Origin: Eubacteriales bacterium
Lineage (GTDB): Bacteria > Bacillota > Clostridia > Lachnospirales > Lachnospiraceae
Assembly (NCBI GenBank): GCA_030524175.1
Contig: JAUNHC010000011.1
Location: forward strand, 1 to 64,000
DNA length: 64,000 nt
Reading direction: 5' to 3'
In this document: positions 18,121 to 53,836 of the stretch, in pieces
Layout of the letters: every line of letters begins with the position of its first letter
Position numbering within the stretch: position 1 is the first letter of the stretch
Position numbers and translations under genes: made by a program
Notes under the pieces: model-generated
What the model was told of the DNA's origin: nothing
Databases searched by the model: none
What the model saw: only the letters and a program-made list of their open reading frames with translations

Positions 18121-18300
18121 GGATTATTATATTGCTTCATTGTTTGCTTGTTTATTATCTCAGATGTTTGGATATTGCACTTGGAATTGTTTTAAGAAGA
18201 CATCTTTCACCCGATTCGGGATGTCCGAAAACTAATTTCGTCCGGTCATTGTTCTTCACTATTTTAATTTTTAGTTCTCAGGCAGTTTCCTTCGGAAATT

Positions 18301-18848
18301 ACCTATAAGATCGGGATGAGAGGGGAAGTTATAGGTAGATGAAGCTGCTATCAGAAGAAAATGAGCTGGAAATGCCAGAGAAATACCTATAAGATTCAGA
18401 TATATGGAAAATTTATAGGTAAATTAAGCGGTTATCTAGAGAAAATACACGGGGAATGCCTGTGAAGTACCCATAAAATTAGGATATGCGGGAAATTTAT
18501 AGGTAAATGAAGGCGCTGACAGGAGGAAATGCACCGTGAGTGGGCGAGAAATACCCATAAAATTTGGATATACGGGAAATTTATAGGTAAATCAAGCAGC
18601 AGTCAGGAGGAAATGCACCGGGAATGTGCGAGAAATACCCATAAAATTTAGATATACGGGAAATTTATAGGTAAATCAAGCTGCTATCAAGAGAGAATGA
18701 GCTGGAAATGTGAGATAAGTACCCATAAGATTCGGATATGCGGGAAATTTATAGGTAAATCCAGTTGCTATCAGGAGGAAATGCACTGAGAATGTGCGAG
18801 AAATACCCATAAGATTTGGATGAGAAAGGAATTTATAGGTAAATGAAA
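18301..18848 (+). repeat. Seven-copy tandem array with exact 84-bp period
   Basis: Copies begin (ACCYATAA) at 18301, 18385, 18469, 18553, 18637, 18721 and 18805. Every interval is exactly 84 bp, although the copies differ by many substitutions. Each holds an inverted pair ACC(C/T)ATAA ... TTATAGGT about 35 bp across, and most hold CAGGAGGAAATG. The plus-strand phase starting at ACC is the only open one. It encodes a 28-residue unit with core THKIxIYGKFIGK, but five of the seven copies, and part of another, contain stops. The longest intact run is 18529-18651 (40 codons). The 180 bp before the array (18121-18300) hold no convincing gene. Confidence 0.9.
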
Positions 18849-49621: not shown

Positions 49622-52600
49622 ATGAAAAGGAAAATTGTACAAAGAGCCGGGGCGGCAGCTTTAAGCGTGGTCCTTCTGGCTGCACAGCCGGGAGCAGCAA
49701 TGGCCGCAGAATTTTCTGAGGGCAATGTGCTGCAGGTGCAGGAGGACATTTTTAACAGTGGAGAAGAGGCTGATTTTTCAGATGAAGGGAAGACGGAATC
49801 CCTGCCTGAATTTCAGGCAGAAGAAGTAGTACAGTCCGGCATTGAACAATGGTCAGATGATACTGAATCACATATGGAAATCATCCCCATTCCTGTCACA
49901 CAGGAATACTTTCCGGACAGCGGTTTTCGAGATTGGATATTGGAAAACATTGACCGGGACAAGGATGATATCTTATCAAAAGAGGAAATCCTGAATACAG
50001 AAGATATTAATGTGTCAGAGTTGGGAATTGATGATTTAGAGGGAATCGAGGTGTTTAAAAAGCTTAAAACTCTGGATTGCTCCGGAAATATGCTTCGTTT
50101 CTTGGATCTCATGGAAAATTCCCGGCTGGAATCCTTGGACTGCTCTGGGAATGAGCTGAGGAAACTGGAGTTGTACAACAAATCTTCTTTGAAGAAACTG
50201 AACGTTTCAGGGAATACATTGCAGCAGTTATGGCTGGATAATCTGCCAATGCTGGAGGAACTGGATGTTTCCTATACTGATTTGGACAAATTGGATTTAA
50301 GCTTTTGTCCTGAGCTTAAAATTTTAAACTGTGACAATGCAAGCCTATGGTCGTTGGAATTAGGTGGCAATCCTAAGCTTGAAAGTTTATCCTGTTCCCA
50401 TAATACTGTCATGGACCTGGATTTGAGCGGACTTACCCAGCTTAAGACTCTCAACTGCTCAGAATCTTCACTTCAGAGCCTGAACATTTCTTCCTGTAAA
50501 AATCTGCAGGAGTTGTATTGTCAGGGTAATATTCTGGAAGAGTTATCACTGGACGGAATGACTTCTCTCAAAGTGTTAAACTGTTCCGGCAACAGACTGC
50601 TGTATGTGGATGTGCAGGACAGTCCTCTCACCAGTTTTTCCTGTAGTGGGAACGAATACTGGACAGGTAAAGAAAAGATTGATTTAAAGTTGATTCCGGG
50701 TCTTGAACCGGACAGCATAGGGCGTCTGGAAAATGGTACATTAAACGAAGATTTAGTTCTTGAAGCAGTGGATCCTGAACTTCCGGTGGTTATTACTTAT
50801 CATTATACAAGTAAGGGCGTGAGTGCGGATGAGACAAATTATATTTATCCGGGCTATCCTGGAGAAAGGGATTTTGCAAGTCCTGAGATATATTCTGAGG
50901 CTGTCAAGGAGGCAGGAGCCAATGACATAGGCAGGATTCCGGTGTCCTCTTTGGCAGGAGTCACATCACTGACGGTAAATGACAGAGAAATTACAGATAT
51001 GTCTGATTTAAAGTATTTTCCAAAGCTGGTATATCTGGAATGCTCAGGAAATCCCATAAGCACTCTTGACCTGACAGGTAATCCGGAGCTGAGAACATTG
51101 ATCTGCACGAATACAGATCTGCAAACTCTGGATTTAACAGGTAATCCCGGTTTGACTTATGCGGAGTTATACGGCAATAAGCTTAGTTCTTTGAATATTT
51201 CAGGGCTTGAACAACTGAATTATCTTGATTACCGGTTTAACGACATAAAAAAGCTGGTTTCGGGAGGTAATAAAAATCTGGAATTCAAGTATTCTGCTCC
51301 TCAGAATAATTATACTGTAAAAGTAGGGACAACAAATCTTCTGCCCTATTCAAAACTTGGGAATTTCCAGGATCACATGTCAGAAGGGGAAAAGATCACA
51401 GCTCTTAAAGGCATGGAATACAGTGCAGACAAGAAAGCCTTTGTGATCAAGCCGTTTACCAGCGGATCTGCTACAGCATCATTTTCCATTATGAATACTT
51501 GGAACGGAAAGATTTTGGGAACATGTACCATTAAGGCGGTTGCAGAAGCGGACAAGCAGCCTTCCCCGGCCAAGCCTAAGCTTACAAAGATTACCAGCGG
51601 GGAGAACGTAGTCCTGACTTGGAATAAGGTAAGTAATATCACAGGTTACCGTGTTTTGCGAAAAGAGAAAGATGTGAAGAATGCAAAGTGGAAATCCGTT
51701 GGTAAGGTGAACTCCACAAAGAATACCTTTACAGATAAGAAAGGATTTCTGAATAAAAATTATCTCTATACAGTCCAGTCATATTGTGTTTATAAAGGTA
51801 AAACCTATTACAGTAAATATGATACGGATGGTTTGGCAGGAAAAGCGGTTTTGAAAGCACCGGTACTGAAAAAAATAAAAAGCGGCCCATCTCTGGAAGT
51901 AAGCTTTAATGCAGTGAAAGGAGCTGACGGTTACCGGGTTTACCGTAAAAAGAAGGGGCAGGCCAAGTGGAGTCTGCTGAGTGATATGGACAAGAGCAGT
52001 CTTATTTATGTGGATGAGACTGCGGTTCCGGGGACATTGTACTCCTATCTTGTTCGCTCTTACCGTAAGATCGGGGATAAGAAGTCACTGGGACGTTACA
52101 GTACCACAGGCTATGTGAACAAAGCCTCTATACCTCAGGCGGAGTTTATCAGCATCACCAAGCATGGAGAAGTTATCACCCTGCAGTGGAAAAGAGTGGA
52201 CATGGCTTCTGGGTATCAAGTGTACCGGAGCGATGAAGCAGATGGTAAATATGAAGAAATGACTGAGCTTGTAGGAGAGGGTATGCTTACCTATACAGAT
52301 GAAGAGATTTTTACTTCAGGCATCCCTTATTATAAAGTCAGGGCTTACAAAGATATAAACGGTAAGAAATATTTTGGAGCTTTTTCAAAACCTCAGACGA
52401 TCACCAAGATTGATGATAATACAAATGCATATGATTTTTCGGAATTCCATATGGCTTATGAATTGGGATATGCGTCAGAGGAAGGGTTTGACAGGACCAC
52501 TGAGGATGCAGGGGACTTCGTAATGTCAACGGCATATCTTGCCAGAGGAAGCGGTCCGGTCCCGGAATGGAAGGTACCGTACGACGATCCATACCCTGCG

Positions 52601-53836
52601 GTCTATAACCCTGACATGAAGGCGGAATACATACTGGAGGAGGCTTTGTATCTTCCGGAACGAAAAGATTCGCTTGACAATGAAGCTATAAAACAGGCGG
52701 TTATGGACTATGGCGGTGTGGCTTCTCAGTATTTCTCAGATCCGGACCTGTATAGTGAAGATGGAAGCAGTTATTATTTTCCAAGAGGAGGAGCAAACCC
52801 GGATGACACACCTGTAGGCAGCGGGGGTGAAGGGCATGCTATCACAATTGTGGGCTGGGATGATTCCTATCCCAAAGAATTATTTAATATCCAGCCCGAG
52901 GGAGACGGTGCATTCCTCTGCAAAAACAGCTGGGGAACGGAAAATGGAATTGACGGATATTTCTACATTTCCTACTATGATGCAGTATTGGCCAGAAATC
53001 AATTCAGCGCGGTATTTACTGGCATAAAGCCAAAGAAAGACATGGGAAAAGCTTATCAGTATGATCCGCTGGGGCCAACTGCAACTTACGGTTATGAGGA
53101 TGAACTTTATCAGGCAAATGTGTTTCCAAAAGAGGGAAAAGTGCTGGCACAGGCAGAGAGTCTCCAGAAGGTTTCCTTTTATACCTATGATGCAGGATAC
53201 TCTTATGATATTTATGTGGTAGAGAATTATAAAGGAAAATCTTCCTTTTACGATTTAGGAGTTCCTGTGGTTCAGGGAAGCTTTGATCATGCCGGATATC
53301 ACACTGTCACATTGGAAACGCCCGTACTGATTGAGGCGGGAAGCCGGTTCGCAGTTGTGATAAGATTTACAGGGAAAAGCGGCGCCTACGGGTATTTTGA
53401 AGCACCCATTTCCGGATATTCCGGCAAGGCATCAGCCGGAAGGGGAGAGAGCTTTGTCAGTCATCACGGGGAGGGCTGGAATGATATCACAGAGTATCTG
53501 GATGGGACCAATGCCTGTATTAAAGCCTTTACAGACGGGGAACAGATTGAAGATGCAGAAGAGGAACCTCCCCTTGGAGAGGGCGGACAGACATATTCTG
53601 TTCAGGAGGTAATGGAAAAAGGTTTCCGGATCAATCCTGAGTATCTTGAAAATGACTTTTCCTTCACTTCCCCTGTTACTATCGGAGACTCCGGGCAAGT
53701 GTACAGAAGTTTTCCGGAGAGCTTTGACCTGCGCCTGCTTGACCGGGTGTCACCTGTGAAAAACCAGGAATCCAGGGATTTATGCTGGACCTTTGCCACC
53801 TATGGTTCATTGGAAAGCTGTATGCTGAGAAACTGA
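49622..53836 (+). CDS. Secreted LRR-Fn3-papain-like peptidase with apparently permuted catalytic domain
   Basis: The protein has 1404 residues with RBS GAGAGGAGG. The order is: signal peptide (cut near AMA-AE, residue 28); EF-hand-like loop DRDKDDILSKEE near 115; cysteine-containing LRRs (LDCSGN type, about 125-355); a second LRR block (about 430-560); three Fn3-like domains (about 645-930). The C1 peptidase part follows without its Cys: DFSEFHMAYE, GHAITIVGWDD (His1072), CKNSWGTENG (Asn1102). A lectin-like domain (about 1135-1315) comes next. Last come FDLR, PVKNQ and LCWTFA with Cys1388, only 16 residues from the C-terminus. In normal family members that last block precedes the His/Asn block. 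No sortase motif is seen. Confidence 0.88.
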   Translation: MKRKIVQRAGAAALSVVLLAAQPGAAMAAEFSEGNVLQVQEDIFNSGEEADFSDEGKTESLPEFQAEEVVQSGIEQWSDDTESHMEIIPIPVTQEYFPDSGFRDWILENIDRDKDDILSKEEILNTEDINVSELGIDDLEGIEVFKKLKTLDCSGNMLRFLDLMENSRLESLDCSGNELRKLELYNKSSLKKLNVSGNTLQQLWLDNLPMLEELDVSYTDLDKLDLSFCPELKILNCDNASLWSLELGGNPKLESLSCSHNTVMDLDLSGLTQLKTLNCSESSLQSLNISSCKNLQELYCQGNILEELSLDGMTSLKVLNCSGNRLLYVDVQDSPLTSFSCSGNEYWTGKEKIDLKLIPGLEPDSIGRLENGTLNEDLVLEAVDPELPVVITYHYTSKGVSADETNYIYPGYPGERDFASPEIYSEAVKEAGANDIGRIPVSSLAGVTSLTVNDREITDMSDLKYFPKLVYLECSGNPISTLDLTGNPELRTLICTNTDLQTLDLTGNPGLTYAELYGNKLSSLNISGLEQLNYLDYRFNDIKKLVSGGNKNLEFKYSAPQNNYTVKVGTTNLLPYSKLGNFQDHMSEGEKITALKGMEYSADKKAFVIKPFTSGSATASFSIMNTWNGKILGTCTIKAVAEADKQPSPAKPKLTKITSGENVVLTWNKVSNITGYRVLRKEKDVKNAKWKSVGKVNSTKNTFTDKKGFLNKNYLYTVQSYCVYKGKTYYSKYDTDGLAGKAVLKAPVLKKIKSGPSLEVSFNAVKGADGYRVYRKKKGQAKWSLLSDMDKSSLIYVDETAVPGTLYSYLVRSYRKIGDKKSLGRYSTTGYVNKASIPQAEFISITKHGEVITLQWKRVDMASGYQVYRSDEADGKYEEMTELVGEGMLTYTDEEIFTSGIPYYKVRAYKDINGKKYFGAFSKPQTITKIDDNTNAYDFSEFHMAYELGYASEEGFDRTTEDAGDFVMSTAYLARGSGPVPEWKVPYDDPYPAVYNPDMKAEYILEEALYLPERKDSLDNEAIKQAVMDYGGVASQYFSDPDLYSEDGSSYYFPRGGANPDDTPVGSGGEGHAITIVGWDDSYPKELFNIQPEGDGAFLCKNSWGTENGIDGYFYISYYDAVLARNQFSAVFTGIKPKKDMGKAYQYDPLGPTATYGYEDELYQANVFPKEGKVLAQAESLQKVSFYTYDAGYSYDIYVVENYKGKSSFYDLGVPVVQGSFDHAGYHTVTLETPVLIEAGSRFAVVIRFTGKSGAYGYFEAPISGYSGKASAGRGESFVSHHGEGWNDITEYLDGTNACIKAFTDGEQIEDAEEEPPLGEGGQTYSVQEVMEKGFRINPEYLENDFSFTSPVTIGDSGQVYRSFPESFDLRLLDRVSPVKNQESRDLCWTFATYGSLESCMLRN

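Follow-up and report, generated by a model that had tools for sequence, protein, structure and literature searches.

Gene and domain organization

A gene for a 1404-residue protein, P0001, was found on a 64,000-nucleotide stretch (the window) of contig JAUNHC010000011.1 from a Eubacteriales bacterium of the family Lachnospiraceae. The protein contains a papain-type (C1A) cysteine peptidase in which the segment with the nucleophile, here called the Cys block (FDLR motif, Gln, Cys and catalytic helix), follows the remainder of the catalytic domain. An initial annotation, made from the sequence alone, had proposed a circular permutation, and its motif order, open reading frame (ORF) and length were reproduced from the ORF translation and the codons, with His1072 and Asn1102 preceding the block that holds Cys1388. 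P0001 gave one full match in its own genome, i.e. it is present as a single copy. Residue positions are those of the stop-to-stop frame minus 4.

From the N-terminus, the domain order is leucine-rich repeats (LRRs), further repeats, DFSE motif, His1072, Asn1102, lectin-like domain, linker, FDLR/Gln1382/Cys1388 and stop codon (Table 1). The peptidase family profile Peptidase_C1 (PF00112) matched significantly (44.7 bits against a cut-off of 20.7) but was split into two stretches, the better of which aligned residues 1064–1118 with profile positions 160–204. All four C1A residues (Gln, Cys, His and Asn) are present, in the order His-Asn-Gln-Cys and not in the Gln-Cys-His-Asn order of C1A; P0001 is therefore described as a permuted C1A offshoot and not as an ordinary member. 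The PF18560 lectin-like domain follows the His/Asn core, as it does in Cwp84-like proteins that combine C1A and lectin-like domains.

The N-terminal half is less clearly assigned. A second LRR-like stretch lies at about residues 440–540, and an NCBIfam search of P0001 returned nothing above cut-off, with internalin matches far below it. Three Fn3 domains had been annotated initially; this label stays unconfirmed, as no Fn3 family of Pfam matched P0001 at E ≤ 1, and only a sub-cut-off GH85_C match (residues 758–798) was obtained. A promoter and terminator scan gave hits at chance level only.

Table 1. Features of the P0001 gene, given as positions in the window.
Feature	Position	Strand	Basis
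Whole gene, P0001, 1404-residue multi-domain protein with circularly permuted C1A peptidase	49622..53836	+	ORF and translation
Signal-peptide-like N-terminus, residues 1–29	49622..49708	+	Judged by eye
LRRs, about residues 97–345	49910..50656	+	Pfam LRR_4, LRR_EndoS
Repeats initially labelled Fn3 (label unconfirmed), about residues 650–930	51569..52411	+	Own-genome protein matches over 634–927
C1A core starting at DFSE, with His and Asn, without Cys block	52433..53053	+	
Catalytic His1072 codon	52835..52837	+	Sequence reading; residue alignment
Catalytic Asn1102 codon	52925..52927	+	Sequence reading; residue alignment
Lectin-like domain PF18560, residues 1145–1304	53054..53533	+	Pfam Lectin_like, 135.8 bits
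59-residue linker, lectin-like domain to Cys block, at the expected pro-segment place	53534..53710	+	
Permuted Cys block: FDLR, Gln1382, Cys1388, catalytic helix	53711..53833	+	Cys-block profile; alignment; helix 451–469 of the second AlphaFold model (predicted local distance difference test, pLDDT, 46–48)
Oxyanion-hole Gln1382 codon	53765..53767	+	Sequence reading
Nucleophile Cys1388 codon	53783..53785	+	Sequence reading; residue alignment
Stop codon	53834..53836	+	

Recurrence in other genomes

The swapped order is carried by 11 genomes, including that of P0001, and four of these are on single contigs. With the P0001 genome counted each time, permuted genes were found in 4 of 64 genomes drawn from the genus, 5 of 397 from the family, 2 of 392 from the order, 3 of 331 from the class and 1 of 338 from the phylum; the draws overlap and these counts are not additive. 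Genus and order were searched at E 1e-18, the family at 1e-36, and class and phylum at 1e-34. At most six to eight candidates were scored per genome in the large draws, in which weaker permuted genes can be missed. The genus search identified G001, G044 and G051, and seven more (G260, G105, G276, G176, G727, G914 and G841), each read in its own frame, came from the draws on family, order and class. Five of these 10 relatives align to P0001 at 30–49% identity. The G001 protein, encoded on a single contig of 3.74 Mb, shares 49% identity over query residues 2–473.

Misassembly or a recent rearrangement at the P0001 locus was considered, given a genome split into 119 contigs. However, the same order occurs in single-contig G001 and in nine more genomes, each in one stop-free frame. 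A recent rearrangement, with conventional order in the relatives, had been raised initially as one competing outcome; relatives with the swapped order exist, from genus to class, and an artefact or recent event at this locus has practically no chance of being correct. Misassembly is ruled out by the relatives on single contigs.

Profiles of the core and of the Cys block (40 columns) were built from six permuted proteins, P0001 included, and the scores of those six are thus partly by construction. The five left-out permuted proteins matched the Cys-block profile downstream of the core, with independent E-values (iE) of 1e-14 (G276), 8e-15 (G176), 2e-21 (G727), 3e-22 (G914) and 3e-21 (G841), and this match is not due to chance. 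In G276 and G176, which have insertions, the core profile covers the second half only; for these two, the first motif and His were identified from the sequence itself. Screening of ORFs of at least 250 residues from the window and the fetched loci (core E < 1e-8 over 150 profile positions; Cys block E < 0.05) gave 120 core-matching entries, of which 27 were permuted (11 genes in overlapping loci) and 93 had the usual order. Deduplication left 11 permuted and 92 usual-order rows, the latter including a paralogue from the P0001 genome. In all 120 entries, core and Cys block occur once each, and the second, upstream block named initially as a possible objection was not encountered. Similarly, the fetched flanks of the 10 permuted relatives (6–18 kb each) held no second core, such as a tandem neighbour with a missing piece would provide.

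Several candidates proved to have the usual order. These were G742, a borderline match over query residues 2–215, and 11 further loci, 10 of them assigned by profile and the remaining one, L054, assigned separately, its core match having fallen short of the length required in the profile screen. Two scans of viral contigs yielded four distant papain-type proteins, all of usual order, and nothing permuted. In the papain-type proteins encoded by four viral contigs (L146–L149, IMG/VR), a Gln-Cys block precedes the GWDD and NSWG motifs, which is the usual order. C1A-lectin enzymes of usual order, in frames of about 560–610 residues, are frequent in genomes of the family (L060, L061). At these two loci, the stretch before the Cys block resembles, by eye, a copper-amine-oxidase-N type domain.

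Conservation of the catalytic residues and the Cys block

All 11 permuted rows have Gln, Cys and His; Asn is found in 10 of them and is replaced by Asp in G105. In the 92 usual-order rows, Gln, Cys, His and Asn are kept in 92, 91, 92 and 91 respectively. The Cys block was the most identical region in all six pairs compared (64–92%, versus 51–85% for core plus lectin, 36–57% for the linker and 39–64% for the N-terminal parts). Its ratio of nonsynonymous to synonymous substitution rates (dN/dS) was computable in three of the six pairs, at 0.085, 0.097 and 0.176, with synonymous sites near saturation and only about 40 codons. For the pair G914/G841, the Cys-block value of 0.097 lies above the 0.051 of the core.

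These data bear on the alternative of a binding pseudo-enzyme with a vestigial Cys block. The GSCGS context is lost in P0001, Asp replaces the catalytic Asn in G105, and structure models give the Cys block low confidence. A decaying block is nevertheless very improbable, because Cys, Gln and His are present in all 11 proteins, which span at least two orders of the class, and no other region is as identical in any of the six pairs.

Partner domains and surroundings

The Cys block had been described initially as lying at the extreme C-terminus. This holds for P0001 and G001, but the other nine of the 11 proteins continue for 164–375 residues beyond the block. The accompanying idea of an enzyme kept inactive until secretion is complete, in the form that relies on the last residues, is therefore not general. 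Partner domains also vary among P0001 and the six of 10 relatives scanned: LRRs occur in P0001 and G001, a 5'-nucleotidase in G044, immunoglobulin-like domains with choline-binding-type repeats in G105, and BspA-type LRRs with Big_2 in G727. Such variety would fit exported surface proteins. The tail of G914 matches a sorting signal below cut-off only.

The G044 protein (L056, 6943–11694) has a 5'-nucleotidase, a Listeria-Bacteroides repeat and a PPC domain before the permuted peptidase, and ends in a hydrophobic, basic tail with the look of a sorting signal. The starts of the G260 and G051 proteins resemble that of G044 by eye, and G051 seemingly lacks the second nucleotidase half. The G727 ORF (L142) ends, past the domain that follows the Cys block, in a dockerin-like stretch, GDASLNWNIEVNDASLVLQK, noted by eye. 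Elsewhere in the window, between ORFs, about six 84-bp units with 79% matches are repeated in tandem at positions 18295–18844. By eye, these units contain an imperfect inverted pair such as TACCCATAAAATT ... AATTTATAGGTA.

Junction, linker and structure models

The permutation cut point falls in a short loop of the usual-order relatives, as a circular permutation would have it, and lies next to the point at which cathepsin B is divided into its two chains. Linkers between core and Cys block measure 59–120 residues among the 11 permuted proteins, the two longest including the end of the lectin-like domain. When all 11 were searched with a propeptide profile of five usual-order proteins picked by the analyst, the linker of G727 matched (iE 9.3e-6), and those of P0001 and the other nine did not. 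The G727 linker is thus one case of a pro-segment travelling with the Cys block, as expected if tandem copies had fused and lost their outer pieces.

Two AlphaFold models were obtained. The first, made with alignment A6, was poor, with a pLDDT of 44–56 for the Cys block; the second, made with A7, was better, but the Cys block still had 46–58. The second model aligns with Cwp84 as far as Cwp84 residue 497. Permuted papain-fold chains were not among the 50 matches listed for this model, which is uninformative either way.

The models do not fix the Cys block on its own core, nor the distance from Cys1388 to His1072 proposed initially as a check, and the linkers are long enough for swapping. It is conceivable on these grounds that the block acts in trans, inserting into the core of another molecule in a domain-swapped dimer or surface lattice. 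Closure in cis, however, needs no swap, since the propeptide and lectin-like domain of Cwp84 are neighbours in one molecule (PMC4089489, in excerpt), and no pointer to dimers was noticed in the sequence. An arrangement in trans is accordingly improbable, and docking in cis is the preferred reading.

Evolutionary history

Careful mixture-model trees were built from 50 rows, comprising the 11 permuted proteins and 39 of the 92 usual-order rows, picked by the analyst to reduce near-copies. With the Cys block left out, the 11 permuted proteins lie on one side of a branch with support of 91/97; with it included, the same branch has 83/95 (neither value starred). When all 103 rows were placed in a quick tree, two changes were required, with G105, G276 and G176 separated from the remaining eight permuted proteins. 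In the careful analyses, more than one change is needed in 19% (with the Cys block) and 10% (without it) of the bootstrap trees. Thus, the permutation could have arisen at least two times, giving the same architecture by a different history. This is rather unlikely: the quick tree carried a warning of long branches meeting at G105, and both careful trees unite the permuted proteins. A single origin is favoured, not proven.

Proposed origin and mechanism

P0001 very probably goes back to a Cwp84-like C1A-plus-lectin peptidase that was circularly permuted long ago, and would fold in cis into an active, presumably exported cysteine endopeptidase. Judged from the sequences compared, the swapped order looks like an old, working redesign and not an error. 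The ancestor would have been an enzyme of the order pro-segment, Cys block, core and lectin-like domain. The Cys block and the pro-segment preceding it would then have been relocated from before the core to after the lectin-like domain. Probably, a tandem duplication was followed by fusion of the copies, which then lost their outer pieces; for this route, G727 is the only relative with a pro-segment signature. The peptidase chain would now begin at DFSE, run through the core and the lectin-like domain and return through the former pro-segment, which may serve as a tether and, as a linker, control activity. The returning Cys helix would dock in cis next to His and Asn.

A further reading, rather improbable at present, is that circular permutation is seen here for the first time in the C1A papain family proper and that it has altered the logic of activation. 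The former pro-segment would act as an internal tether, and cutting it might free a Cys-bearing piece of about 40 residues (longer, and possibly wall-anchored, in relatives) that remains held only non-covalently. The result would be a natural split protease, whose nucleophile could be lost, exchanged or docked anew to switch it.

In the permuted lineage, it can be tested how a secreted protease is silenced and turned on once the pro-segment has lost its place at the head of the chain. Split or permuted papain-type enzymes could also be modelled on this natural design. Pfam splits the permuted domain into two stretches, and further cases may thus be easily overlooked.

Comparison with known systems

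The two chains of cathepsin B arise by proteolysis of a chain of usual order and not from gene order. The break between them (1huc, 1csb) is at nearly the same place as the permutation cut point, with a light chain of 47 residues and a heavy chain starting from about residue 50.

Searches of the open-licence literature showed no permuted C1A peptidase among the papers listed, and permuted catalytic helices are already known in other families. In a survey of the papain family (PMC10380794) the term 'permut' is absent. According to the excerpted text of PMC10318531, cluster I, with the C1 peptidases, keeps all core elements, and permutation is reported for other clusters. The permuted NlpC/P60 proteins (YaeF/YiiX, LRAT), PPPDE and LupA likewise have the catalytic helix behind other elements (PMC3142127 and PMC10318531, both in excerpt), and permuted NlpC/P60 enzymes of the YiiX/LRAT type and P0001 are alike in having Cys behind His in sequence. 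In contrast, NlpC/P60 has Tyr at the place of papain Gln19 (PMC3142127, in excerpt), where all 11 permuted C1A proteins have Gln. NlpC/P60, PPPDE and LupA are other families, for which the excerpts mention no lectin-like partner of the PF18560 kind.

Among the closest known systems is Cwp84 from Clostridioides difficile (PDB 4ci7, 4d59), which also combines a C1A peptidase with a lectin-like domain. Its order is propeptide, Cys block, core and lectin-like domain, whereas that of P0001 is core, lectin-like domain, linker and Cys block. A paralogue on another contig of the P0001 genome (L005, G000:C17) has a C1A core and lectin-like region with 33% identity over query residues 1022–1296. Unlike P0001, it carries the Cys block before the core, by both motif and profile, and belongs to another branch of the quick tree. 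Usual-order relatives, this paralogue among them, are close enough to the permuted lineage for direct comparison.
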